NCBI GenBank assembly: GCA_020543525.1
Contig: JAHYIO010000001.1
Coordinates: 2,976,001 to 3,040,000, forward strand
Length of the DNA stretch: 64,000 bases
Origin: Coriolopsis trogii
Lineage: Eukaryota > Basidiomycota > Agaricomycetes > Polyporales > Polyporaceae
Direction: 5' to 3'
Made by a program: the position numbers and the translations under genes
Shown: in pieces, positions 46,619 to 64,000 of the stretch
Numbering within the stretch: the first letter of the stretch is position 1
Layout of the letters: each line of letters starts with the position of its first letter
Notes under the pieces: generated by a model
The model's database searches: none
What the model was told of the DNA's origin: nothing
The model's input: only the letters and a program-made list of their open reading frames with translations

Positions 46619-47191
46619 TCACCACCCGTGCGCGCCACGAACAGGCATGTCGAGACACATCCGGAGATGTTCTCGTGTCTCTCCCGCATTCCAAGGCGGC
46701 GGATCGGCACTGCTGAAGAACGGCTCGACACATGTCTTCGCGATCGACTTGAACAGGTCCTCGAGAATCCATGTGAGGCGAGGACCAGTTAACTCTATTG
46801 CGGGCTCGGAGTTCACCTCAAGGAGGTTGGCCTGCAGCTTCTGTCCGACCTTTTCCCACGGTATCCTGATAAGGGTCCTCTCTGATTGGTCATCGCATTT
46901 CCCTACCTTTCTCCAGACTATACTATTTCCTCGGGTAACCTAACCAGCTATCTATGATTGGCTGATATTATTTAGGACCAATACATTGACATCTAAACTT
47001 GGAGACGGCATCGGAATAGCGGGTAGCGGCATCTGAATAGATGGTAGCGGCATCTGAATGATGGGTAGCGGAATCTGAAAAGTGGGTAGCGGCATCTGAA
47101 TGTCGGAGGTGGCATCTAGATCGGAGGGACCGGCATCTGGCAGGTGACCATCACGTGGGGGTGGTCCGTGCGGTTGCGATACGAACTGCAC
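46619..47191 (-). CDS. Small unnamed protein with MPLPxxQ heptad repeats
   Basis: Two exons (47191-46991 and 46939-46619, 51-nt intron) give 173 residues. The first exon has five tandem 7-residue units of the form M-P-L-P-x-(I/F)-Q, encoded by 21-nt repeats at about 47,095-46,995. The second exon looks globular: WRKVGKCDDQSERTLIRIPW, VGQKLQANLLEVNSEPAIEL and WILEDLFKSIAKTCVEPFF. I do not recognise it. It could be a complete small gene or the surviving end of a larger one, since the globular part lacks a matching N-terminal domain. It lies directly before the transposase gene in opposite orientation, 187 bp away. Confidence 0.5.
46995..47095 (-). repeat. 21-nt tandem minisatellite, about five units
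   Basis: Units such as CAGATGCCGCTACCATCTAT recur in frame with a 21-nt period on the minus strand and encode MPLPxxQ. Variation is mostly at the two wobbling residues. Confidence 0.7.
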
Positions 47192-47378
47192 GGCCCCGTC
47201 GCGCCTCTCCCAACCCCCACCATCTTGAAGACATCCCTCTCCTTCCCATCGCTCCTCACACGTCGTTCGTTGTATTCTCTCCCTCTGTAGTATCGTAAGT
47301 CAGTCTCAACCGGTAGATGTAATCATAAGCTGTATACTTAATTTCACTTTCAAATGTGCAGACAAATTTGTCCGAAAC

Positions 47379-50300
47379 ATGCCTGCCATGAGATCCCGCT
47401 CTGTTTGCCCGAACTGTGGGCAGTCATACGGGCGTGGCGGAAAGGCAGCTCATGAAGCCCAATGTCAGGGTTGGTCTCAGGCGGGTTCGATGCAGGCTCA
47501 ATATGATCGTAAGTTCCTCGCCAATCTCTACGTAATGCGCTATTGGTCTCATACACTCCCTCCAGCCGCGGCATTGCTACCGCCTCCCAGACCGCTTGGC
47601 GTCCCCCGAATGCTTCCGAACTGTAAGTCTGTCCTTTGTTTCAGTGTCTTCTCTGTGCTAAGGGGACTAGTCGTTCAACCTCCGTCAATGTCTCTTCGCA
47701 CCATTCTGGAGGCTCTGCCAACGCCGCAAGTCCCACCCTCCACTGAACCTGTTCCCAATCCTGGTACGGATTTGCTCCACTCCGCCACCTTGTACGTGTA
47801 CTAATACAAGTTCCAGAGGCAGACATACCTCGGAATCGACGTAGTCGGCTCAGGGCTGATGCTGCTGTCCCCTATCCTCCTAGGATCCGGTCGAAATCTA
47901 ATGGAGCCGCCGCCGCCGTCGCTGCCGATCGTCCCGTCGCTGCCGATCGTCCCGTCGCTGCTGATCGTCCCGTCGCTGCCGATCGTCCCGCCGCTGCTGG
48001 TCATCCTGCCGCCGGCCATCATCCCACCATCATTGATATTCCTGTCACCACTGATCTTCCCGCCATGGCCACCACTCCTGGGGCTGCTGGACGGTCTGCT
48101 GACCATCCTTCCAACACTGCCGGTGATGCTCCTAGGCATCGGCGTGGACCTTCCCATGTACCGCCCCTGTCCATTCCAATTGCGGCAGCAGCTTTGTCTG
48201 CTTCAGAATCATCTTCACCTTCCCCGACTCCTTCGCCGTCGGTGAAGAAGCATATGTCTGCCGAGGACGTTCAGGAGGGTGACTTCAAGACCGAGCATCA
48301 TCCCCGAGCACACAGGGAGACTACCTACTATAGTTACGATAACTTTAGGCAGCCAGAGGACGTTCGTGTCGAACCCCCATCGCACACTCCATGGTACCCA
48401 TTCAGGTCCCGTACCGACTACGAGTTTGCAGAGTTTGCCCTTCAGGCCAGACTGAACAACAATCAGCTTGGGACGTTGTTGCAGCTTGTGCGGGATGTGG
48501 CCAAGGACCCTGCCCAGCTTTCTTTCAAGTCTGTGGCGGAGGTGCATAGGACTTGGGAGCAAGCAGCTGAGTCACAACCTAGAGTCTGTGTAGTTTACAT
48601 GTTCTCTCAATGATGTTGAAGCTTATGTATGTATGTGCATGTAGATGCAGAAGAAAACCATCTCAGTTCCTTATAAGAATGGAGAGTGGGAGACCTCCTT
48701 TCACTTTCGTGACATCTGGCAGTGGGCTCTTAACCTCATCAAGGATCCTATGCTTGGGCAGAAAGTGAGATGGCATGCAGTCAAGAATTTCCAACTGGTG
48801 GATGGTGCCTGGGTTAGATTCATTGATGAGCCTTATACTGCAGATGCATGGTATGAGGCTGAGGTGTGTTGAGTCCTGGTCTATAAATATTGACAACAAT
48901 TAACACAACTTGTAGACTCAGCTACCTGCTGGTGGCTATCCAGTCTGTTTTACTCTCTATGCAGACAAAACCAAACTGTCAAGCTTTGGCACTAAGAAAG
49001 GCTATCCAATCATTGCTCGTTTGGCCAATCTTCCTGCAGAGATACAAAACGGTAGTGACTATGGTGGAGGTCAAGTTGTTGGATTTATGCCTATTGTAAG
49101 ACTGTATTCATTATTGATTGAACACATGTACTAAGCAAGTCTTAGGTGGAAGATGAAGATGAAGAGGGCAAGGCAAACTTTACCAAGCTCAAGCGGGAGA
49201 TTTGGCACAAATGTTTTGAGGTGCTGCTACAGACTTTTCGAAACAAGTACCCACTTGGCTCCAAGGTTCGGTGCGGCGACGGAAAAGAGCGTGTACTCTA
49301 CCCTGTCATTCTGATTCTGGTTGCTGACTATGAAGAACAGTGAGTTTGCTAGATCAACTATATTGCTATCATTGTACTAATAAGATATATAGATGCATGA
49401 TGTCACTTATCCGTGGTGTCAAAGGCTCTCATCCCTGTCCTATCTGTCTTGTCCCAGCCAATAAACAAAGCAAATTGTTCTCTGAGCCCAAGTATCCTCT
49501 CAGAGACTGGACAGTGGTTCAGGAGCACATCAATACCTCTACTTCAAAAGTTGGCTTAGAACTCAAACTCAAACCTCTAAGTGTGCGACCTGTCAAGGTT
49601 AGTCTGTTAATTTACATACTATGAACCATATATTGATTTATTGGATTAGAGTGCCTTTTGGCAGATACCTAATCTGAATGTCCATAAAGCACTCTCATTT
49701 GACAGGCTCCATGCTTATAGTCTTGGCTTGTTTGGAAAACATATTTTCAAACAGGTTAGAGAGATTGTCAAAGTAGCAGGTCGGGCTACAATGGTTGGCA
49801 TGAATACAGTGTAAGTTCACTCTTTGTAAGATATGATTGTATGGCTTAACATCTTTTGAAGATTTGCAAATATTCCCCGCTGGAGTGGCCTTCATCATTT
49901 TTCCAAAGTAGCAACAGTTCAGTTTTCAGATGGGTCAAAATATGAGAACATCTCAAAGGTTGATTATTATTAAACTTCAATTTGTTTAATCTCATCTTAT
50001 ATCAACCTCAACTAGCTTCTTGTACCAGCAGCCTATCACATCATTGATGTCAAAAAGAACACACGATGGCGTACAATCCTGAAAGCTGCCCGCTGCTTTA
50101 CCATACTGGACACCTATGTTGCTATGAAAGTGCATACAGAAATCACACTCCAGGATTACAAGCAGCAACTTCCTATTTTTTCCTCTGCTATCAAGGTGCC
50201 TTCTAATTTATCTATTGTTAATATGTGTAGTTCTGACAGGTTGATCTTTCGATAGGAGTATAGAACAGTCTATCCTCATAAGTCATGGAATTTTCCCAAG

Positions 50301-51581
50301 ATGCATAGCCACCAACATGCTATCCTGGATATTATTGCCAAGGGTGTTTCTCTGCACTTCAACACCAAACCCTTTGAGTCTATCCATGGCTTATTCAAGT
50401 TGATTTACCAAAGGCAGACTAACTTCAAAAACTCTGAGGACCAGGTATGATCAATTTATCATATACTAGTTGTCATAAGGCTGATATTGTAAACAAACTT
50501 TATAGATTGCTGTCATTGACCATTATCATCTGGTTGCTAAAGAGAAGCGCTATCACATCAACTGTCTAGATGAATATCTGAATCCTCCACCACCTGCCAA
50601 GGATGCTGATGAAGAGGTCACTTTTGGAGGTCTCTCTCTGGGCTCTTCAGATAAGAAGATCACAATCAAGAAGTTTGTTGCTCAGCATGCAGCAGACCAC
50701 CCTGTTGCTTTTGGCCAGTTTCAAAAGCGCCTGCTTGGGTATCTTCAGAGTCTGGGTTGGAAAGGCCATAATGGATCAAGGCTAACTCTTGATGAGTCTA
50801 CTCAGGTTTGTACTATAAACACCCTAGCTGAATTTTCTGCTCACTTGATATATAATTTCAGATCACCCCAATGCACTATCTCAGAGTCAGCTATGCCTCA
50901 ATGGTAACATGGCAGACAGAGATTGACAAGTTAAGATGCACGCCCAGCTTCAACGGAGCAGAACGACGGGATGGAATCATGTACCAAGCTGACCAAGCTG
51001 GTAGTGTGGCATTTGGCATACTGCAGGAGGTCTTCATCATCAGCAATCCAGAAACTGGGAAGAACCATCCTATGGCTTTGATCCAGACGCTCAAAGTTGT
51101 GCAACAGCGTAGCAAGATTGCACAGGACTTGGGACTTTGTCGCTTACACCTGGACCAGCAGAACTATGGCAGTACATCGTTTATCCATGGACAAAGTATC
51201 ATCCGAGGTGCTCTGATCATCCAAGATGGTGGACACTCCAGTGGAGAGCAGTACCTGGTAGTGGACACCTTGGACTCTGACATGTTCCTCCGATGCAAGA
51301 AGCACTTTCCCCTTTGGTACTCCGATTCCGAATCTCAGCCCGACCTCTCTCAGCCCGATTCGGATTCCGAAGAAGTAGAGAGTGTGGGTGAGGACAGAGA
51401 GGTGTCTGAGGAAGAGGGGAGTGGAGATGAAGACGAAGATGAAGATGAAGACAAAGACAAAGATGAAGATGAAGACGAAGACGGGAACAGTGATGATACC
51501 AGCAGGTCCAGCGGCGAGGACTGGGATGGCACAGTTTCTGGTGATGATTCCGATGAGTCCGACATAGAGAACTTGGATTGA
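47379..51581 (+). mobile_element. Plavaka-type DNA transposase gene, apparently intact
   Basis: Fourteen exons close in one frame to 1163 residues: 47379-47508, 47566-47622, 47671-47763, 47817-48583, 48645-48863, 48916-49095, 49146-49339, 49393-49597, 49650-49810, 49862-49958, 50016-50195, 50256-50444, 50506-50805, 50862-51581. The N-terminus holds a C2H2-like finger (CPNCGQSY, H/C later), then a variable linker. Plavaka-like blocks follow: DEPYTADAWYEAETQLPAGG, LYADKTKLSSFGTKKGYPII, VGFMPIV, CGDGKERVLYPVILILVADY, CPICLVP, and FDRLHAYSLGLFGKH. The tail is strongly acidic (Glu/Asp runs). Plavaka are CACTA-related elements of Agaricomycetes. Exons from 48.6 to 50.9 kb are visibly AT-richer than neighbouring genes. 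Terminal inverted repeats were not located. No stop or frameshift was found. Confidence 0.8.
47914..47998 (+). repeat. 18-nt tandem repeat inside transposase linker
   Basis: GTCGCTGCCGATCGTCCC recurs about four times with an 18-nt period and encodes VAADRP units in the disordered linker. Only a few third-position differences are seen, suggesting recent expansion. Confidence 0.75.
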
Positions 51582-52459
51582 ACTGGACTGGACAACAACT
51601 ACTGTATTCCATTTCATCCCTTACTCTTATGAGGTCCATCAAAGTGTGATTTCTTCTTGGGTACAGCGTTACCCGAACGGTTCCGGCCCGCTCAGCCAAA
51701 CAGTAGCGCCTGCGCCACGACCATCTACCAGACGTGGTCTAGAGGGGTATACACCAAAGTGGAAACATCCCCCCACCAGACACGACCGCCACGCTCATGT
51801 TTGAGCCATCAGACAACTGGAAGCAGACACATGGTAAGCCTCCTCAAGGCCGTTTCCCAGCCGGTGACAGAGTGATACAGTCCGTACTCGCCACCAGTCG
51901 CCACCAGTCAATGCGTCTTAGCATCGCTTTCCGCTTAACAATACATGTTCCCACTCCTACCGGCAGACATTCAACGACACCAATCAGTGGTCCCCTGACT
52001 AGAAGGAACCGTATGAAAGCATTGCACCAGATCACCATGCATCCATGGCCTCCGCTCATTCTACAACGCCCAACCTGGTTGATAGGCATGTCCGGGGTTT
52101 CCAAGTGGATGAAAGGTCCATCACCCCTGTCTCCCCTCACAGTGCCCAACATTCCTCTCCTGAGTACGGCTCAACCGTTCCTGCGCCAAAGCGAGAATCC
52201 CCTGAGCTTCCCCATTTGCTTCCTCACCTAGAGGCCCTTTCGCCGAAGTCCTGAGGTCCTCTGGTGTCTGTACCACCTGCTCACAAGCCGCATTCGCGCT
52301 CTCCATCATATTCCTCCACCAGCAGTTCTGTGAACCTGCCGCACATACAGGCCTAACAGCAATTCCCGAAGAACGGTCTCCCTGCTAAACCCCAGTTCCA
52401 ACTCCCGCCTCGCTCTCAGGGCTCGGGTGGCTCTCTTTCTTCGTCCCTACAGGCTTCAC
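51582..52459. other. Non-coding or decayed interval after the transposase
   Basis: Open frames are short and shift repeatedly. Composition returns to higher GC. The 3' end of the mobile element should lie here or further right. I could not identify a terminal repeat. Confidence 0.35.
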
Positions 52460-53895
52460 CAATGGCCCGTGCATCACCGGAGTTGGACATATCATCAATC
52501 TCTGGTGACCAGACACCCAAGTCCGCAAGTCACGCGTCGTCTTCTCGTTCCTCCCCAACACGGCCAGTGCAAAATCAGCCCTCGGGTGCGAATGGTCTGT
52601 ACGATCCCTTTTCCTGCCTTTGCAGAACCTAGCAGCTCATTGCGTAGAAACAGGAACAAGGCGTTTAAGGCGTTCGGGAGGATGTGGGTAGCGATTCTAT
52701 ACGTTCCTCTCCGTCGCCCACCTGCCCGACGCCTGACAGGGAGGAAGGTCGCGGACGTCCAGATATAGTCTTCGACAAGAAAGATGACTCGTCGGACGAC
52801 TCCGATATGGAGATGTCGCCCCCTGCAACTCCTATGCTCAAACCTACCACGCCTCAGGCGCCTAGTACACCCGGCACAAGCCAGGTAGCGTCAAGCCGCC
52901 CGACTTTGGCCATTTGCATGGCTTCTTCGTCTCCTGGTCTTCTACCACACGAGATCCTCCGACAAACTGCATCTGCGTCACCCATGCCTACAACTTCTGA
53001 GCACGCTAACGATCCCGATGCCGGTAATGACTCCGACATGGAGATGTCTTCTCCTACGTCTGAGACTACACGTACTCCTTTGCCTTTGCGCCGTCAATCC
53101 CCTGCTTCTCCTGCTCTCCTCGTCACATCCTCGGAGAACTCCCCTACATCTGTGCCTGGGTTGGGTCTGACCACGACTACCGTTGCTACGCCAAAGCAGG
53201 CCGCAATCCCTCACCAGAACTTGATTCACCTATCCCTTGTTCCGGTACCACCGATTTCTATGCCTGTGTCTCAGACTCCTAGTGCTCGTCCTGCAACGCC
53301 TGTGATCACAACTTCATGCGAAGTCAGCGTGCAGGTATCCCCACGCATCGGCAAGGCGACTGCCCTGGATCGTCACCCTGTCAATGCCGGTGAGCTTTCT
53401 CCTCCAGCCAGCGAAGAGACGACGCGCTGAGGATGGTTGCCAGGCTCCGATTTCGTCATGATCCGATTACTCAGGAAGGTCACGTAGAACCCATCCTCAT
53501 CTCTAACCGTCACCTCGCGGAATCTGAGGCACCAGAGACTGCTGCTTCGTCGTCTCCGGAATCGCTTGTTCAGACGATCGCGGAGAAGGAGCAAAGGCAG
53601 CTATCAGAGGATTGCTACGATGGCACGAAACATTCTCCTCGGAAACGCTTCGCACAACACCAGGCCGCTCTTGCTGAGAAGGTTGCGCGTCTGCGCAACG
53701 AGTACCTTGCTCTGCACGAACGCTGGGTAGTACATTGCGCCAAGATGGACGAAGTAGCGTGAGCCAGCACTTTGGAGGAGGCAGCCGCCACCGCGTGTCG
53801 TACAACGAGACGCACGACCGCAATGAGAGATGCGGTACGTTCTAACCTTGAGATGGAGCAGATTCTGGCCAGCCTGGGCAATGAAGAGAACTCGG
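52460..53895 (+). pseudogene. Snt1-like SANT co-repressor, N-terminal fragment
   Basis: Coding character runs through several frames: Ser/Pro/Thr-rich sequence (52,460-53,430), then RFAQHQAALAEKVARLRNEY and WVVHCAKMDEVA, then directly after an in-frame TGA (53760-53762) ASTLEEAAATACRTTRR and AVRSNLEMEQILASLGNEE. The last block is the segment that precedes the first SANT domain in basidiomycete Snt1/SMRT-like proteins, subunits of the Set3 histone-deacetylase complex. The first SANT domain expected next is absent; an ELL-like fragment starts instead. At least one nonsense codon and one frameshift (near 53,430) show decay. The assignment is from motif memory and needs a search. Confidence 0.6.
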
Positions 53896-54151
53896 TAAGC
53901 CTTCGAAAACGAAGAAGAGTAGTGCTGCGCGTCGGCCTGCTGCCTCGTCAACTTCGAAGGCGTTTCCTCAATCCACGCCCATCCATCCACCGCCTCCCAA
54001 GCCGTCTCCTGCCGCAACTTCTTCGTGCCCCAGAACCTCTACAGGAACTAATCCTAGAGACACCTTCTCGTCTTCGAAGGCTTCGTTGCATAATACATCG
54101 ACTTCACAAGCAGCAATTTAGACACCCGATTTCACGTCCACTCGAGCACGA

Positions 54152-55905
54152 TTGATCCATTGCTTGGCGCTCAAACCACGAACGACAAAGGCAATTGCCG
54201 CAATGTGCGTAGGTAAGAACCCTACGGAAGAATTGAAGGTAGAACTCATGGGTCTGGTCAGTACGGTGAGTGGCACACTACCACGTACGTCATCCTGCCA
54301 TGAACCATTGTGCCCACAGCTGGCAGAACTGGCTCCGCCCCTTCACAACAATGACTCGGACCCACAAAAACGCTATGAACTCACGCTGGAGGGATGGCGA
54401 GAGGTACGGCCGTACGAATGGCCGAACTTGAGGGATGAAGACCACGTCAATCTATGCCATTCCGCTCAACAAACTTTCAAAGAGCTGCGTATACCGTCTT
54501 CCGACCCTCTATGGCAACATGTGCGTATTCGCAGCGGTGATGGGTCAGCGTCAGGATCCTCAAACCATGCCACGGCGGCCACGCGGCCTCCGGGTTCGGA
54601 GAAAAATGGACTAGTCATGACGAAGAGCAAGACGAAGACGAAGACGACAGAAGGTACGCAGAAGAAGGTCTCGGACGTCATGGTCCCAGCAAAGGACGAG
54701 AGTATGAAGGGAAAGGCGCGCGAATTGGACGACGGTGCTGCCAGTACGCCGACAAGTGCGAACAGACCACCAGCACGTAGACAGCCCGGATCAGGCTACA
54801 AGGTCAAGCAGTCTGAAACCTCGCCTATTTCCGACCCTCCGAGCACACTCTCCACTACCTCCGATACCCAGGAAAGGGCCGGTCGACGCGCGTGAAAGCA
54901 AGCGAGACCGGCCACAAGTATCTGGTTCGGCGAAGCCTATGCCACCGATTGCGCCTCCAGTGGACTCCAGGACGAGCTCTAGTACTGCTGCTATCAAGAA
55001 GAAGCCCAAGGAAACGGCGCAAGCTTCGTCTAGCTAACGCGCCGATTCAGAGAGGCGGGAGGCGCGTCCGTGAGAACGTGAACATGAGCGAGATCAGCCC
55101 AAGGAAGAGAAGCCGCGGGCGAAAGTCCCTGCTTCCCCAGTCCCACATTCTCTGCCTTCGTTCACGCGCAAGCATCGTCAAGATGGGAACGACTCGGAGT
55201 ACTCCGAATGGGAAACCCCTCTCAGCGCCGACGAGAGCAGCGGTGAAGCTTCCTTCTTGATGTTCATGCCAGGAGGACCGAGAGGAGATCCAGGTTTTTT
55301 AGGAAGAGAAAGATCTCTAACACGAGCCTTCTCCGAGCTGGATTGCTGCTTGATTTTGCGCCGCTTTGACGCACTCGCGTTCTCGCCACCTCCAGCCACC
55401 CCCGCCCGGTCCTCTCTTCCTCCTCGCCATCTTACGGCTGACAAGCCTATCCCGTCTTCCTCGTCGTCAACAAGTGCACACAGCGGCAAGTCTGCGCACA
55501 CGGCCCGCTCATCAGAATCTGTCAAGCCCCGGCGGAGGTCTCCGATATACACGTCCTCCGAGTCCGAATCCCAGGCGAGCATTCCTCCAGTCCGCCGTCC
55601 CCGCTCCGGAGCCCCCTGCAAAGGCTTATCCCCCCGTGACGCACACGCCACGCTTCAAGCCCCGGTCGCTCCCTGTGGACAGCGCTGGGCTGCGCAAGTA
55701 CTACCGCGGGTGCTACCGGATCTACCACAAGCTGTACGACCAGTACGAGGCGCCGAAGGTGCGCATCGAGCAGATGCTGGCGCGGAACGCTCGCGGGGAG
55801 GCTGGGACGGGCACGGGCATGGGCACGGACGACGAGATGGACATTGACGAGCTGAGCCCGGAGGTGGTGAGCGGGTTCATGGCACTCCATGCCCCGGATG
55901 AGTAA
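54152..55905 (+). pseudogene. RNA polymerase II elongation factor ELL-like fragment
   Basis: The 5' part encodes ELKVELMGLVSTV and then YELTLEGWREVRPYEWPNLR with HSAQQTFKELRIPSSDPLW, which matches the winged-helix ELL domain of fungal ELL proteins. A Ser/Lys-rich linker follows, including RRRSPIYTSSESESQ, and finally SAGLRKYYRGCYRIYHKLYD, an occludin/ELL-like helical end. The linker and the C-terminal piece lie in different frames, with a shift between about 55,590 and 55,640, so this copy cannot make the full protein. ELL suppresses pausing by RNA polymerase II. The fragment sits between two pieces of an Snt1-like copy in the same orientation. Confidence 0.5.
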
Positions 55906-56684
55906 TACAGCCGCCTCTGACAGCCCTTTTCCTGAAGTTGCTCGCCCAGTACGGTGACGATTTCAAGCGGATCGCCTCCTCCATGCCCAACAAGGTGCGT
56001 CGTACCTGACAAATAGAGTTGATAGCATACTAACATTGTTCGTCAGACTACCATCCAAGTGGCGGCATTCTATCAGGCCAATGTCGCAGAGATGCAACTC
56101 GCCAAGGTCGCGGCTTTAGCACCCAAGAGATCTCCTACGCCGCACGAGCCAACGTACCGACATAGTGTCCCCAACATCCCTGGCGCTGGGATCATGCCAC
56201 CCGTTCTCAAGCCAATGCATCTGGGGGTGGACAATGGCGCAGCGTCCTCGGCCGTGTCTCGCTTCCGAACTAGTGGGCGTATGTCTCCCCCTCCTAATCC
56301 CAGTGGAACTCAGTCCGCTGAGATAGACAAGCGGGCGAATTCTGCTGCACAGCGTGACATGGCCTCATTCCCCAAGATTGTAGTGCCGCTCCAATACCGT
56401 GGCGGACTGGCCGCATTCGCCAGACCATCGGGCAACCTGACGATGCAAGGCATGGGTCTGCCGCTACCCAAAGGAGCCTTGATTCTTACACGTGCAAGCT
56501 CCATGACTCGCCAGTCCACCAGTAGCTGCTCAGGGACATGGTGAACGAGGCAATCTTTGCCGGGCTAGACCCTTTTCAGAAGACGTCAGAATTACAAGAG
56601 TGCGTAACAGAACAACAACGCTCTGCTCGTGCCCTTGGAGATCCGGCGACTTCTACCTTAGCATTTTCAGCACTGGGGTCCTAG
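55906..56684 (+). pseudogene. Snt1-like fragment with second SANT domain
   Basis: LFLKLLAQYGDDFKRIASSM followed by PNKTTIQVAAFYQANVAEMQ is the second SANT repeat of Snt1-like proteins. The phase-0 intron between them (55,996-56,046) is retained, so the copy came from DNA, not mRNA. The frame continues with KVAALAPKRSPTP and a Pro/Ser-rich tail. Near 56,530 the frame is lost (stop at 56,544), while coding-like sequence resumes in another frame (DMVNEAIFAGLDPFQKTSEL). This piece continues the fragment at 52.5-53.9 kb, separated from it by the ELL-like segment. Confidence 0.6.
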
Positions 56685-57444
56685 CATCGTGCGTACATTG
56701 CTCTGATGCAGAATTACGCATGTTTCTCATTTCCGACACAGCCTTAATTGATCGTCAGGGCAGGTGGACAGCATTCTGAGATGGCATGCCTTCCGCAGTC
56801 ACCCTACAAAAATAACTGCCCGGTTGGAATTTGAATATCAGATTGATCTTTACGATGTTACACAGGCAGGCAAGCAGGAGGTTATGCACGTTGCGGGCGT
56901 CACCCACTTGATTAGGACGGCGTCCTACCATCTTAGGTTCTCCGCCCATGCCGGGCCTTAACAAGCAGGCTTGTACGTAGTCATGTCTGTTTTTTTTTCC
57001 CTTCTGTCGTTTTGCGAGGCCCAGTCCGGCCGTCACAAGTGAGATTCCGCGCAGGTTGTTTGTCCGGTAAGGGAAGACTTTCCATATCCGTGAATCGACT
57101 TGAAGACTCGGAGCCTCAGGCTTCTTTCTTAGTCTACTGGCCTTCTTGGTCAATGATGGTCCTGCTTACACAGTAGGATCATGTCGACTCTGCCAGTGCA
57201 ACATGGCAAGCACGAAGGCACTTGTGCGGCGCCCTCGTTTGGGTGCTGACTTGAAATCATTTTATATGACCCTTATATATCAGACCGTCTCTTCATCGTT
57301 TCTCCACCACTCCCTGTTCCCTGCTGGCATCGTTGTATCACTCATTCTTCCACATCGTCGCTGCGTTCGTCCTCTTCTTCACACAGTCTCAAGTGTATGT
57401 ACTCCCCGAATACTTGTGCCCGGTTACTGAACAGCCTGCTGCAG
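56685..57444. other. Interval without recognised gene
   Basis: A T-run (56,990-56,999) and pyrimidine-rich stretches near 57,300 are present. The last 150 bp probably forms the promoter of the following gene. No coding signal was seen. Confidence 0.35.
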
Positions 57445-59589
57445 ATGCCTGGCCGCGGACACCGCGCATCGAGACTTCGGCAGCCTCCAGACTCCGACTC
57501 AGACGGCGAAGTCTTCGACCTCGAGGGGATCAGCTCAGGCTCGGAAGAGGACACCGATGACCATCAGGACTTCTCGCAACACGCCGCTTCCAACGTCGGT
57601 ACAGCCGGAGCAAGTTCAAAGGCGAAGGAGAAAACGAAGGGAGGGAAAGGTAAAGAGAAGGCCAAGGGTGCAACCCTAGAAGAGCGTGCCAGGCGACTCT
57701 TGGACTGCAACCCGATCGCTGATTTTGTGTCGCTTACGGAGGTGAGTGCCTTTTATGCTAGTTTTGTGTACGTATAGCTGAGTCCTATGGCCACATCCAG
57801 TTCGTTGGGGAAGCGCAGGTCGTGGTGGCCGGCCTTCTCGAAGAGCAACTCGCTCTCAAGGCTGAGCAAGCCGCCAAAAAGCAGCTGTTGTGTTCGCAAT
57901 GCAGCAAGAGACTCCGTAAGCGCAAGGACAAGCCGCTCTCCCCGCTCGAACAGCAGGCGAAGAATATTGGTTCCGTCGCTCGCGAGTATTGTTTCCTGTG
58001 TCGTATCTACAGCCCTCCACCCTCGGTATTCAACTTCCCAGAGCCACCGCCCGGTATTGACCCTCTCAACTACGAACATCGCTATCCCTCCAAAAACGAG
58101 AAGGCAGGCACGCTTGTAGCTTTGGGCGCAGAGCTGTATCTATTTGTGCCGCCTCACATGAGGACGTGGCTGAGCGATTCTTGGTTTCAAGAAACTGTAA
58201 GTAATATTCACCTACTCCTCGTGGCAGATTCTGACCAGTGCCCATTCGCTTAGTTCAACAACGCCATGGGCAACGAGCGTGGCCACCTAATCTCAGACGT
58301 CAAGAGCTGTTGGGGGGTGATCTTCGGCCACATCAAGAACTTCGATGATCCAAAAGTTGCTCGCTTTTGGTTCGGCAAGGGCGTTGAAGACCGCTGGGCT
58401 CCCATCCTCTTCCCTGAGGGCTCTCATAGGGACTTCAAGCAGGTCTTCCGGCAGCTCGCCATTCCGAAGGTAATCTCATCTTCCCATGATCTCTTCGCAA
58501 TGCCGAGCTAACAATTTGATTGCAGACCCTTGTTGTCATAAATTGGGGTCATAATGCCTTCGCCGCCGACGGCAAAATCATACGCCGCAAAGCCTCTAGA
58601 GCAAAGCGAAGGGAGGTCGAAGAGATTTCCTGGAGCCAATTGGCATTCGCTGCATGCCTGGTATGTGGTGCGCTGCCTCATATTCGTTGGGCATGATTAC
58701 TCAATGTTCACTTTTCAAGTGCATGTATGCTTGCTCCGGCGAAGCCGCTATGACGTCAAACATCTGGGAGAAGCTGTACGACGAATACCTCAAGTTCCTC
58801 TTGCAGAACCAGCACACCAAGGCCATTCAGCGCACCATGCAGTGGCTAAACGACATCGTCTTTCCAACCAATCCGGGCAACCAGGGCCAGGGCTCCCAAT
58901 CTGACTCGCCCAACGATCAGGAAGATGTGGTCCAAGACAATGCACAGCTGACCGCCTTGCTCGACGAGGACGACTCCGATATAGACCTCCCGCAGCTATT
59001 TCCAGCACGTCCTGGCCAGCACTCCGTCAACCCTCGCTCACAGGTGCGGCCAGATCCCCTCCCATCTCCTACAGGGGGTGTTTCCGAGGGCAATGAGACA
59101 GAGAGCGGATCCGCCACTCCTCGCCCAGAGGACACACCTCCTACACGCTCACCTTCGCCCCAGGACCCACGCGCTCGCTTGCCCGCTTCGCATGACTTGC
59201 CCGGTCCAGCACAAATCACCCAGGCGCTTTCTCGCCTACAGGTGAACCAGACGGCACACCATGGAGCTTCTCATCTCAAAGCTGTCCCTGCTAATCTGAG
59301 GGAGGATTCTGATGAAGAACAAACTCCCTCCACCCGTCCAACACGGCCCCTTCCGAAGTTTGGCAAACGCGCCAAGGCCAGCAAGGCAAAGGCCCCAGTC
59401 AACGCACACAGTGGTCCATCCAACCCAGTCCCACCCCCTGCAATAACCGGCGACTCAGCAGCGCCTGCCAGGTGGTCAACAAGGGGCAGCGCAGATGGTA
59501 GGACGAAGGTGGTTAGCCAGCAGGACGTGCAGGGCTCTGGACAGGGTGTTCGTTCTACTCGCAGTAGTACTCGGGCCTCAAAGCCTTAG
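57445..59589 (+). CDS. Unnamed, unbroken fungal protein inside the fragment mosaic
   Basis: Five exons (57445-57741, 57801-58196, 58254-58469, 58526-58660, 58720-59589) give 637 residues with no defect; an upstream Met at 57,397 is possible. Residues 1-80 are acidic/Ser then Lys/Gly-rich. The middle looks globular: a CSQC...CFLC pair that may bind zinc, FVPPHMRTWLSDSWFQETFN, WGVIFGHIKNFDD, DRWAPILFPEGSHRDF, and a helical AFAACLCMYACSGEAAM. The C-terminal 250 residues are disordered. It resembles a lineage-specific Agaricomycete family often found near mobile elements, but I cannot name it. Being intact among pseudogenes, it may be element cargo or a recently inserted copy. Confidence 0.65.
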
Positions 59590-60059
59590 TGTGAATGCCT
59601 GTCGGTTGTATGCTCATATCTTGTCTTCGCAACGAATCGTTATTGTTTCTTGGCAATCTGTGTCTTGGGGATTTGCGAACAACGCTGTATGCTTTCCGTC
59701 CATCAGTGTCACAAACGGCGAATGCTAGACCATTACGTAAGCCATTGTGTCGGTTCTGCTACCACGCATTCTACTCTCTTCTAACCAACAATAGTTCTGG
59801 GCTGGTATTGGTGTCCATGCCTTTTCTATGCTTTCGCCATACCTCGACAGGCCCTGGAATACACACTATGTGACCTTGTTCTCCTGTGACACCCACTGCA
59901 GTCAATCACTTCAACAGGAGGACGACCACTATATTCTGACCGCCAGCACGCAGCAACCGGGACGCAGCGCTCTACAATAGGATACACTTCTTTGACATTG
60001 GCGAGAGAGAGAGAGAGCGCACGCTCAGCAGCAGCAAGGTGTGTGAGCGGATTGCGATC
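59590..60059. other. Interval with short GA microsatellite
   Basis: No gene is seen. A (GA)n run of about 8 units lies at 60,003-60,018. The interval separates the unnamed gene from the convergent end of the LYS2-like fragment. Confidence 0.4.
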
Positions 60060-61459
60060 GGTGAGATGGATGGCGAACCATGACTACCCCGAGTATTGCC
60101 AGGTCGTCCTCCAAGGCAACCAGCTGGCGCCATCCATTAGCCAGGAACATCACTTCCCTGGTCATTGAGGGGATGAGGAAGTACGACACCGCCCGCTGCG
60201 TCTCGGTCTTGCCTTACATGTTGACGTGCACATTGGCAGCCAGAGACTGCAGAAGCAGGACGTAGCGGCTGGCCCCTAGGAAAGGTGAAGTGAACACTAC
60301 ACGTCAAGAGGTTCAGTGACAATTGCATGAGACAGCTATTGACATTCTCACTGTTGCTTTGGATCGTATGCACGATCCTGCTCAACATCCTGAACTTCGA
60401 GGGCTCGCCGATCCCGAACCGCTCGCCCATGCATGGGAAGAAGTGGGTCAGACTGTAGTGTCTGCCCTTGACACCATTCGGTATGCCTGTGCTTCCACTA
60501 GTAAACGATAGTTTCACGACGCTGTCCGGACCTAGCGCCACGTTCCGGTCAGAGTCTGCCAGTTGCTTTTGAGGTGACAGTACGACTTCTGCTCCATCCG
60601 CATGGGCTCCACCTGCAAGTTGTCCATCTGCGAGTCGCTCCAAGACTGGAACTTCGACGCGAATCTGAAGCTCCGTGGTGATGAAGTTGCGAACGGAGGG
60701 CGAAATCCTTCCCCGGGCCGTACCCTTAAGGACGACGAGCGCACGAGGCTGAGCGACCTTCGGGTAGATCGTCTGCCTCGAAGGCGGGTACGCCGGGTCG
60801 ATGACTGAGAACGTCGCGCCGGGCTTGAGCATGGCCAAAACGGCCACGACCAGCTCGACGCTGCGGTAGGCGTAAACTGTGACGACCTCCTCTCTCTGCA
60901 GCCCGTTCTGGAGCAGGTGACGCGCGAGAATGTTGGACGCGTGCAAGATCTGGCTGTACGTGAATGTGCGCTTCTCCTGCCGCTCGTCAGGACTTGCAGA
61001 GGGGATGCACTGGACGACGCAGGTGCGATCGGGCCACTGCCTTGCATTCCGGGAGAATACGTGTGGGATGGCGCCCTCGAAATCCCACCAGTTCAGATCG
61101 GCGGTCGGGTTGGGCAGCTTCGTGCGCCGGGGAGGGGTCAGCAGCAGGACGGATCCGACCTGTGCCAGGGGGATCGCAGCCACGCGACGGAGCAGCACAG
61201 AAAGCTGATCGACGATGCACGATATCCGGGCGGACGTGAACAGCAGGGAGTTGTACAGGATACGGAGGGAGATGTGCGGCGCGATGGAGGCTCGACTCGA
61301 TTCTTGCTGTCGCGTGACGAAGATGGTAAGATCCGAGGTGAGGCTGGTGGTGCGAAGGAAGTGCTCTTGCGGAGAGTCGGTCTCGTCGAAGAACCGTACG
61401 CGGAAGAGAGGCCGCGATCCCTCCACGGTGTCCGCCTTGTCCTTTCCCAGAGCTCGCAT
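60060..61459 (-). pseudogene. Alpha-aminoadipate reductase (LYS2) fragment
   Basis: A 440-residue open frame encodes most of an adenylation domain: SLTSDLTIFVTRQ, SARISCIVDQLSVLLRRVAA, FSRNARQWPDRTCVVQ, RTFTYSQILHASNILARHLL, GATFSVIDPAYPPSRQTIYP and SFTSGSTGIPNGVKGRHYSL. LYS2 activates alpha-aminoadipate with ATP in lysine biosynthesis. The N-terminal about 180 residues normally present are missing. After ERFGIGEPSKFRML the conserved sequence breaks off. About 150 bp later sequence equivalent to SLAANVHVNM-x-GKTETQRAVSYF follows with TAA (60216-60214) where Tyr is expected, then LVALEDDLAILG. The P-loop-like motif has Asn for the usual Lys (GIPNG). It is truncated at both ends and cannot be functional. 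Confidence 0.82.
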
Positions 61460-61599
61460 GATGGACTCCTACGACACGCTATCCGCTTCGGCCTCCCGCT
61501 CGACCTGCTGCATATTTCGTACGACCGCCCATTCTGGGCCCTCCGGCCCAATCGCGAGGCGGAGAACGAGCGGATCGCGAGCGGATGCAGACGAAGAGC

Positions 61600-61850
61600 C
61601 AATGACACCGACCCCGTCCACCGTGTCGCCTCCTATGGGCACGCCGATCCTGAAGAAGCCGACACCGACGACTCCGGGGACTCCCACCGCCGCGACTCCT
61701 ACACATCACGCAAATTGCCTTCAGACACCCAAGTCGCCGAGGAATAAGCTCGCACCAACCCCGAAACAACCGGCGCCAAAGCCACGTAAGGTCTCCCCGA
61801 CCCAACCACGGCCGCCGCCTCCGCGCTCGCCTCGTCGAGGAACGCAGTGA
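61600..61850 (+). pseudogene. MED15-like fragment, Thr/Pro-rich part
   Basis: The plus strand encodes TPTPSTVSPPMGTPILKKPT and then TPTTPGTPTAATPTHH, QTPKSPRNK and PAPKPRKVS. This is the low-complexity region typical of basidiomycete Mediator subunit 15. No start or flanking KIX domain is present. It abuts the LYS2-like fragment on one side and an antisense fragment on the other. Confidence 0.4.
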
Positions 61851-62215
61851 GCTGCTCCATGCTCGCCTCTTCGATCGACGTCCTGTCTATCCGCATGCTG
61901 TGGTCGTACTGGTCCGTGATGCCCGGGTAGTCCAGTCCGCCCCTGCTGCCGTCGCTCGTCTCTTTTCCGAAACCGACACCCGAGCCGTACCCGATCTGGC
62001 TGAGGAGCATGTCACCGGCTGCGACGTGTCGTTCAGGCCGCTGTTGGATAATGAGTCGGGTAGGAGGTAGTTATTGTTCTGCAGTGGAGCGGCGCCGTTC
62101 GAGGTGCCGTTCATGTGGTGAGAGGGAGGAGCGTTGGGCGACATCGGGTCCTCCGTCGACGGGGGATGAGGGATGCCGAGGTTCTGGATGAGCGAGTCGA
62201 TGGACGACTGGGACG
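61750..62215 (-). pseudogene. Fragment of an unidentified gene, antisense to MED15-like pieces
   Basis: On the minus strand SSIDSLIQNLGIPHPPSTED is followed by MSPNAPPSHHMNG and LLPDSLSNSGLNDTSQP. Then, in another frame, come GDMLLSQIGYGSGVGFGKE, DYPGITDQYDHSMRIDRTSI and EEASMEQLTAFLDEAS. The frame changes near 62,025, so the copy is damaged. Composition suggests the C-terminal part of a regulatory protein, but I cannot identify it. It overlaps the end of the first MED15-like piece. Confidence 0.45.
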
Positions 62216-62230
62216 AAGATCACTGCTGCC

Positions 62231-63012
62231 CCTGCTGTGTCAAGTCCTGCAGAGAAGCCGCCACCCACGCCTGCCACACCCGCCAGTGCACCAACACCTG
62301 ATCCGCAATCAGGGAGCAAGCGGCCACGCGAAGAGGACGCGTTCACCTCTGCGGGTACGGTGGCTCCAGCGGTGAAGAAGGTCAAGACAGAGTTCAACGA
62401 GGGCGCCGCGACGAATTCGTTGACGAAGCGGGAAGCTGAAGCGGAGGCCGTGAAAACGGATGAGGACACTGTGAAGTTCTTCCAGCGGATGTCGAGCTGG
62501 CTGAACCAGGTGTCGTCGACGGAGGCGAAAGGCCAGGACAACTTCAAGTCGGAGATCGCGGACCCCCTGGATGAGATCCTGAAGGCATCCTATCCGGCCA
62601 TACCAGAGGGCGGTGACCTCACGTCGAGTACGAGTTTCATCGACAGCCTCGCGATCGGAGGCTGGTCACCGAAACAGAGCGCGGTCGACCCAGCGGATTT
62701 CTTCGGCTTCACATGGTATGACCTCCTCGAGGAGACGGGGTCGGAAGCGGCTACCCCATACTTGGTGCACCCGTCCTCATCAGTCGGTCGAAGTCCGGGA
62801 TCCGCCTTGGAGACTGACTCGAGGTGCACCCTCCAGGGCCTACAGGACCTGACACGGTTCAAGATCACCGACGTGAAAGCTGAGGAAGAGGACGCCATTC
62901 CGTCGAAGCTGTGGAGAGCGATCGATGGGGGAGAGTCCAAGTTCTACAGTGCGTCGGACAACTGGAAGTCGGACCAGCCGTCGACCAGCCGTGGGCGTTG
63001 TTCTCGGAACAG
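62231..63012 (+). pseudogene. MED15-like C-terminal fragment with frameshifting duplication
   Basis: The sequence runs PPTPATPASAPTPDPQSGSK, then RPREEDAFTS, KKVKTEFNEGAATN, VKTDEDTVKFFQRMSSWLNQ, and ends LWRAIDGGESKFYSASDNW. This is the C-terminal order of Agaricomycete MED15/Gal11-like Mediator subunits. An 11-bp tandem duplication (62972-62982 and 62983-62993, GACCAGCCGT plus one base) shifts the frame just before the end. In the alternative frame the expected QPWALFSEQS and stop (TAG at 63,010-63,012) are visible. In the actual frame translation continues to 63,193 through unrelated sequence. MED15 contacts activators in the Mediator tail. Confidence 0.55.
62972..62993 (+). repeat. 11-bp tandem duplication
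   Basis: GACCAGCCGTC and GACCAGCCGTG stand side by side. Taking one copy away puts the conserved end of the MED15-like reading frame in register with its stop codon, which indicates that this duplication caused the frameshift. Confidence 0.75.
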
Positions 63013-63360
63013 TCATAGAAGGAAAGCTTTGAGGCGGGGAGAGGTGAGCACAAGATACTCGCTTGATCAAACTTTACCTTACGTGCTTACTCTTAATTCC
63101 AGTGCAACTGATCCTCGGGCTGCCCTTCCAAGAGGAGCAGTCATTGAAAGGGCAGCCGTCGCCCTTCCGAGCGAAGCCACATCGGCCTTATAAACGACGC
63201 GTACTGCCTAGACGCGTAACTTTGTTGACCACGTCACGTGGGGCGCGTCATGGTCTCGTGATGCACCAACCCAGCGCGATCCGCCTACGGTTGACAACGG
63301 ACGTTGCCACCCGTGTCGTGCTCCCTATCCCCCTTCTCCTCTAGGTCTTCACCACTCTAC

Positions 63361-64000
63361 CATGCTGTCTTGTTCAACACCCGTTGACGACGGAGATATT
63401 GACCATTTGAGCGGCTTGTTATCAATATGGTGAGCGCCACCCTTATTAGCAGACTGCCAAGCTTGACCTGGCCATCCAGCTTTGGCACGACAGCTTCAAG
63501 TTCCCGACAAACGACTCTGGTTACCACGACCACGGACATGCAGAGTCTTCTACAAGAATACGTACTTGAACGTCGACAGGAGGAGGATACCGATCCTATA
63601 TTCATGGATGGAAACGTGGACTATGGAGTGGCACAAGGGTGCTTCCGCCCGGTATGTAGGACATGTGGCGACCCCTTAGCGAACTCGAAGCATGCTGACT
63701 GTCTGTGTAGCCTGAGGTCAACGACGAGGTCTCCCATAGCCCATCCGATCACGCAGAGAAGCAGATCAAACGGCGTAGAGAGGACATGGCCCAGGGAGTG
63801 CGCTCTGGCAAGAGACACAAGCCTGATAAGGTGACTACTGACACTTCGGCATCCTTATTCCCGGCGACCGAGACAGGCTGGATGGGTCAGAAGATGAGCA
63901 GACGAGATATCATGCGAGGGATCGACGAGGCGTGGAAGAACCGTTCGATCATGTACAAGATGGTCAAGGAGCTCAACTTTCGCTTGGTTTCATACGAAGG
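63361..64000 (+). CDS. Partial unnamed gene at right edge, possible frameshift
   Basis: Coding sequence enters the right edge in the frame IPI-like exon 63711-64000 (EVNDEVSHSPSDHAEKQIKR, then GWMGQKMSRRDIMRGIDEAW). It joins an upstream exon ending at 63651 (SLLQEYVLERRQEEDTDPIF, then MDGNVDYGVAQGCFRP) through a 59-nt intron. Before that, LAIQLWHDSFKFPTNDSGYH is strongly coding but in another frame; the change occurs near 63,540-63,550. Either an unrecognised splice or a one-base frameshift is present. A possible start is at 63,361 (MLSCSTPVDDGDIDHLSG) or 63,427. The family is unknown. It lies next to the pseudogene mosaic, so it may be another damaged copy. Confidence 0.5.

Follow-up and report, generated by a model that had tools for sequence, protein, structure and literature searches.

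The 64,000 nucleotides of the Coriolopsis trogii genome analysed here (the window; assembly GCA_020543525.1, contig JAHYIO010000001.1, hereafter C1, positions 2976001-3040000) contain the greater part of a large DNA transposon, very probably an autonomous-looking cut-and-paste element of the PlavakaA type that has captured host DNA serially. Matches were sought in the same 38.8-Mb genome (39 contigs), and two copies of the element were recognized. Copy E1 (21,370 bp, plus strand) occupies window positions 46842-68211 (C1:3022842-3044211), extending 4.2 kb beyond the window end, and copy E2 (C33:844783-825643; 19,141 bp) lies on a different contig. The long match to C33 begins at position 46842 and continues beyond the window end; the two copies align at both ends and along common blocks. 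Both start with TGTCCGACCTTTTCCCA and finish with its imperfect inverted counterpart, the left terminal inverted repeat (TIR) being at 46842-46861 (plus strand) and the right one, at 68211, reading TGTCATAACCTTTCCCAAATC inward. The termini are thus TGTC..GACA in E1 and E2, and each copy is flanked by a 2-bp target duplication, TC/TC around E1 on C1 and TG/TG around E2 on C33. An earlier note on this DNA had placed a transposase beside a mosaic of gene pieces, and had proposed a search for shared terminal repeats or target duplications enclosing 47-63 kb. Such ends and duplications were found, but the unit that they delimit is 46842-68211, and the transposase lies within the same element as the mosaic. 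The host flanks on C1, joined minus one TC, give an open frame of 115 codons that matches PF03133 (E 2.5e-8); E1 therefore interrupted a tubulin-tyrosine-ligase-type host gene, the C-terminal coding part of which is at 46622-46841 (minus strand). At the C33 site, the joined flanks contain no spanning open frame of at least 60 codons.

Donor-derived DNA makes up 10,395 of the 21,370 bp of E1 and 7,906 of the 19,141 bp of E2. Within E1, positions 52460-63012 are pieced together from copied segments of unrelated host loci, which lie in both orientations and partly within one another, and the earlier description of a mosaic of broken host gene copies is confirmed. When this stretch was searched against the genome, the donor pieces showed 84-99% identity (0.12-1.34 kb, E 3.7e-32 to 0), and the matches, on C6, C28, C25, C33 and C3, abut almost base to base; a chance origin of the patchwork is excluded. 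E1 contains pieces of six donors, namely a Snt1-like SANT gene, ELL, LYS2, an ARID (SWI1-like) gene, an HSF gene and FAS2. E2 also has six: the E1 set minus ELL plus a 2.06 kb piece from C3:2969627-2971729 (the C3 piece), which is mostly upstream of a gene model without known function. Seven donors are recognized overall, five of them common to both copies; a single donor outside E1 and E2 was found per piece, and these counts are lower bounds.

In E1, the first part of the Snt1 piece (51636-53888, plus strand; donor C6:1110661-1113317) has lost about 220 and 143 bp in two internal deletions and also shows a 40-bp gap. Nested in the Snt1 piece is that of ELL (53887-55882, plus strand; donor C28:3132263-3134277), with a 154-bp in-place inversion at 55226-55379, and the second Snt1 part follows at 55883-56468 (plus strand; donor C6:1114272-1114860). 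The LYS2 piece is antisense (60138-61605, minus strand; donor C25:885259-886906), as is the HSF-type piece (61811-62211, minus strand; donor C3:602600-603028), which is nested between the two parts of the ARID gene piece (61608-61795 and 62212-63044, both plus strand; donors C33:2019969-2020156 and C33:2020157-2020999). The 2.7 kb FAS2 piece, at 65210-67881, lies past the window end. In the stretches at about 56.5-59.9 and 63.0-65.2 kb, which hold the second open reading frame (ORF2) and the dioxygenase gene described below, the search for donors gave only a single 124-bp match of 80% identity (59959-60082, minus strand; C33:1486699-1486817); it was not counted and is possibly an older capture.

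The donor of the Snt1-like piece has PF00249 (SANT), the label 'Snt1' being that of the earlier note. Homologues of the ELL donor carry PF10390 and some are named 'RNA polymerase II elongation factor', while a PDB sequence search with the ELL donor ORF gave nothing. The LYS2 donor locus has Condensation, AMP-binding, PP-binding and NAD_binding_4 domains; the ARID donor has PF01388 (ARID), and we take this gene to be SWI1-like; the HSF donor locus has PF00447, the captured piece corresponding to the C-terminal part of the gene; and FAS2 was named from FAS2 structures and the sole FAS_I_H locus. Among the five source genes first proposed, ELL, LYS2 and the Snt1-like SANT gene thus stand, and the one that had been left without a name is the HSF-type C-terminal part. 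MED15 was rejected for the donor at C33:2.02 Mb, where the gene model shows ARID only at E <=0.01. The proposed search of the same genome for parents and their boundaries yielded the donors listed above, FAS2 among them. Four of the six donor genes of E1 (the SANT gene, ELL, the ARID gene and HSF) look like transcription or chromatin regulators, although the number is small.

Seven of the nine parental introns examined are present in E1 (six complete and one partial; four within the window and three in the FAS2 piece beyond it), the other two falling in deleted stretches. In E2 four of the nine are kept (one partial) and the others are not in the copy. Since parental introns are kept, retroposition is rejected, and because all donors are still at their original loci, the DNA was copied. 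Capture at the DNA level had been claimed from a retained intron of the Snt1 SANT domain; the claim holds, but its ground does not, as E1 contains 0 of the 129 SANT bases and it is other introns that provide the evidence. One of the options proposed at that time, transduplication by a DNA transposon, is supported by the ends, the target duplications, the second copy, the donors in place and the introns.

The expected frequency of microhomology (0.163 per junction) was obtained by pairing random breakpoints within the donor loci themselves. The test covered 18 junctions; 13 are free of added bases, and 2-3 bp are shared at 10 of these 13 (p = 2.4e-6, or 1.1e-5 when the inversion is counted once). 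The ten microhomology junctions over all 18 give p = 1.6e-4, and adding two small Snt1 gaps as misses (10/20) gives p = 5e-4. These two gaps, near the 5' end (one per copy), stand outside the 18, as do the border between the 80% match and LYS2, a short insert in E2, the borders to the element's own sequence (which have no second source) and the E2 copies of junctions common with E1. Because the junctions share 2-3 bp more often than expected, repair by template switching is favoured. The ELL and C3 pieces replaced Snt1 DNA, which was lost at the entry points, and in E2 a 38-bp patch of Snt1, taken from another part of the gene, comes after the C3 filler. In the process that we propose, breaks or excision gaps would arise within the element, repair synthesis would jump to other chromosomal loci and return by way of 2-3 bp of microhomology, and the copied filler would replace part of the element, which would transpose in its enlarged form.

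The two copies give a partial order of captures. Divergence from the donor (E1/E2) is 12.0/10.6% for HSF, 7.2/7.5% for ARID, 7.5/7.6% for LYS2, 7.8/6.8% for FAS2 and 4.7/3.9% for Snt1, and is 2.55% for ELL (E1 only) and 2.4% for the C3 piece (E2 only). Between E1 and E2, divergence is 3.1-4.4% in three long blocks and 4.7-6.4% in the common captured pieces. The borders of HSF in ARID, the 3' ends of ARID and Snt1, the start of LYS2, and the end of FAS2 with its deletion match in both copies, whereas the LYS2/ARID border and the start of FAS2 differ through later deletions. As five donors are common to E1 and E2, capture preceded transposition. The C3 piece lies within the common Snt1 piece, and it entered after the split of E1 and E2 because Snt1 is uninterrupted in E1 at that point; by this comparison, at least one capture is later than the separation of the copies.

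The transposase gene (47379-51581, plus strand) has 12 exons and encodes 1200 amino acids. Its spliced model matches PF18759 with E 4.5e-42 over profile positions 1-323 of 325, and relatives were found across the whole core searched; Pfam runs on the single exons gave no matches, and the spliced model was required. The reading frame is open in E1 and E2, and the ratio of nonsynonymous to synonymous substitution rates (Ka/Ks) between the copies is 0.29 (0.22 for the core), with 64.5 nonsynonymous and 63.5 synonymous changes. The transposase, noted earlier as apparently intact, is intact. ORF2 (57445-59589, plus strand; five exons, 637 amino acids) encodes a DUF6698 protein (PF20414, E 1.5e-6, above the cut-off); its Ka/Ks between E1 and E2 is likewise 0.29, and its only DNA-level matches in this genome are E1 and E2. 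ORF3 encodes a TET-fold Fe(II)/2-oxoglutarate dioxygenase; its upstream part, from the predicted start, is at 63711-64000 (plus strand) and its conserved core, at 64061-65160, lies beyond the window (ending at C1:3041160). Ka/Ks of the core is 0.06, from 11 changes only. A TET-fold test was positive for ORF3. In its HxD..H iron site, H380 and D382 are nearly invariant and H433 is invariant among 21 sequences; the motif is HVD and differs from the HxE of the TET/JBP PE type. Asn and Cys occupy the offsets of CcTET 331 and 337 (Gly/Ser and Asp in the AG type), by an ungapped count from HxD only. No Pfam match to Tet_JBP was found up to E 1 among 21 members of the dioxygenase family, and a PDB sequence search with their alignment gave weak unrelated matches only (best E 0.44). 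This TET-fold family occurs in Polyporales and a few other Agaricomycetes; five weaker relatives (35-39% identity) are present elsewhere in the genome, and the closest proteins are from Polyporales fungi. To judge from the Ka/Ks ratios, purifying selection acts on the transposase, the DUF6698 protein and the TET-fold dioxygenase.

The captured pieces present a different picture. Those common to E1 and E2 have 164.5 nonsynonymous and 71.5 synonymous changes, and their pooled Ka/Ks of 0.76 (Snt1 0.61, FAS2 0.69, ARID 0.79) differs from that of the transposase (p = 2.8e-4) and of the ORF3 core (p = 9e-4); pooled, they are near neutral by this measure. In-frame stops occur in four of the six pieces of E1 and three of the five coding pieces of E2. 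Changes of donor CpG to TpG or CpA in the copy outnumber the reverse (ELL 23 vs 3, C3 piece 23 vs 0), and older pieces lean the same way (47:12, 102:43 and 90:32); CpG observed/expected is 0.53 in the transposase gene vs 1.04 in window positions 1-46.8 kb. By context, C-to-T changes number 314/3535 at CpG, 91/2621 at CpC, 55/2257 at CpA and 36/2262 at CpT, and decay of the repeat-induced point mutation type was rejected on account of this concentration at CpG. The pattern is what methylation of the element, without its donors, would leave, and such CpG decay suggests that the captured pieces did not stay methylation-free. One prediction of heritable methylation in trans failed, CpG decay being far greater in the copies than in the donors.

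That the captured pieces function, either as chimeric genes or as antisense or small RNA against their donors, is unlikely. The antisense orientation of the LYS2 and HSF pieces, the Snt1 piece lying in sense about 55 bp downstream of the transposase stop, and a Ka/Ks of 0.41 for HSF would suit such a role, but the in-frame stops, the pooled Ka/Ks and the loss of CpG in the copies, hardly seen in the donors, argue against it, and the pieces are most likely passengers. The TET-like enzyme may work against methylation of the element's cytosines. It is conceivable, though unlikely, that the element escapes silencing doubly, the strongly conserved enzyme demethylating it and a growing load of pieces from essential regulators and metabolic genes making its sequence costly for the host to silence; capture would then be maintained by selection acting on the element rather than by accident. 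The camouflage idea for captured pieces has already been published for plants, as outlined in PMC8978399.

Other routes of assembly are much less probable than serial capture by repair within the transposon. Under the Pack-CACTA model of local hopping and fusion, a pair of neighbouring insertions moves as one together with the intervening DNA, a route proposed for plant Pack-TYPE elements in the account of PMC8903248. No internal ends were found inside E1, allowing up to 5/20 (left) or 8/30 (right) mismatches, and the sole internal end match in E2 belongs to a short insert within the LYS2 piece, at a distance from that piece's borders. In eight donor loci of 10 kb the right end had no match and the left end three weak ones (4-5/20 mismatches), in two loci; moreover, the ELL and C3 pieces sit within an older capture, replacing part of Snt1. 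Fusion is thus quite improbable. That a Helitron or another transposon put the pieces into the Plavaka element, an option raised in the earlier note, has scarcely any likelihood. Helitrons are known to capture gene pieces, although those of Pleurotus ostreatus are described as not prone to it (PMC4289320, for both points as given there). Here, inverted ends and 2-bp duplications accompany a Plavaka transposase, and no RepHel match was found among the three gene models. The entry of ELL and of the C3 piece was accompanied by loss of Snt1 DNA, and the borders that were tested have either 0-3 bp of microhomology or 1-15 extra bases, although Helitron ends were not searched for systematically. The other option, a chromosomal hotspot at which break repair gathers ectopic duplications and the transposon is a bystander, accords with the type of junction. 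However, the five common captures occur at two sites between the same ends, each with its own 2-bp duplication; for these five the hotspot is refuted, and as a whole it is hardly credible.

Several points weigh against serial capture by a transposon with a TET-like enzyme as described here. Transposition and template switching are both reconstructed from sequence, and oxidation of 5-methylcytosine by ORF3 is a putative TET activity taken from the fold of a homologue. Five of the 18 junctions carry 1-15 added bases, and the alignment at the LYS2/ARID border of E2 is poor; if this border is set aside, microhomology of 2-3 bp is seen at 9 of 12 insert-free junctions (p = 1.1e-5). The three weak left-end matches at two of the eight donor loci may exceed the number expected by chance. 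ELL may have been captured before E1 and E2 separated: the case for a later capture is weaker because E2 is without that stretch of Snt1, and a divergence of 2.55% does not decide between the two; its inversion could be later than its capture. HSF (10.6-12%) is more diverged than the enclosing ARID piece (7.2-7.5%), the reverse of a simple order, which divergence does not settle because donor rates differ. Finally, Ka/Ks of single pieces ranges from 0.41 (HSF) to 1.6 (LYS2), and HSF alone is not distinguishable from the transposase (p = 0.48).

Short degenerate repeats (GGTAGCGGCATCTGAAT), noticed by eye at window positions 47000-47300, adjoin the left end and resemble the subterminal repeats of CACTA elements. 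The insert in the LYS2 piece of E2 (about 183 bp, C33:832973-833156) has a right end resembling that of the element and a target duplication of CA or none. Its terminus is present at four other places, and there may be a small family of miniature elements that use the Plavaka transposase. Capture as a general habit of Plavaka was rejected on a single control element, at C4:101409-108867 (7,459 bp, CATC..GATG ends), which showed no multi-donor mosaic when searched against the genome. Most of its 25 matches were at Plavaka loci, the exceptions being C4:682454-684216 (including the left end), C33:1330296-1330813 (the right end) and two short stretches at C5:1629378-1629565. A second copy of the control (C30:2371308-2378765) is 99.99% identical, which marks this element as very recently active.

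By its TGT..ACA-type ends, 2-bp target duplications and transposase domain (PF18759) the element fits PlavakaA, a lineage of Plavaka in the CMCT clade as defined by Kojima (2025, PMC12730594). In the classification given there all TET-carrying Plavaka are assigned to PlavakaB, whereas the present element combines PlavakaA-type ends with a TET-fold gene and host-gene pieces, and would be an exception to that placement. It belongs among the known gene-capturing TIR transposons. As in the gap-filling model for the animal Pack-TIRs described by Tan et al. (2021, PMC8277862), whose microhomology is put at a median of 2 bp, filler is copied from elsewhere and later transposed; unlike them, it keeps its transposase and has six donor pieces, some of them nested, and the ELL and C3-piece donors are on contigs other than those of their host copies. 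As to the nearby-donor bias of Pack-TIRs, the seven donors are on five contigs, and the element may have been at another site during the older captures. The plant Pack-TYPE and Pack-CACTA elements similarly move host gene pieces between inverted ends as a unit but are characterized as non-autonomous (PMC8903248), and no sign of their fusion route was seen here; because the transposase is kept, the element is not Pack-TYPE, though Pack-TIR-like in its working. Plant CACTA elements, to which it is related, have a transposase, and captured gene pieces are reported in those of Chenopodium (PMC8978399), while the soybean Tgmt*, cited at 20.5 kb (PMC2613891), is of comparable size; however, the present element is a fungal Plavaka with seven donors, a TET-fold gene and two copies showing a partial order of capture. 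An earlier fungal case of transduplication, as presented in PMC3538342, is a hAT element of Pyrenophora tritici-repentis with a transposase and a histone H3-like host-type gene; it differs in having one such gene, with its longer form in 10 near-identical copies, and no many-donor mosaic in that account. We could not find a paper describing an element like the present one in the open-licence PubMed Central literature.

How cut-and-paste transposons acquire host genes is still debated. Where two sister copies have the older captures in common but not the newer, and both the donors and the exact junctions are known, sequence can answer this question, here in a fungus with a small genome, and the value of E1 and E2 lies in their documenting together part of the order of capture. 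The presence of a strongly conserved TET-fold gene alongside the captured pieces also makes a link between demethylation and capture testable.

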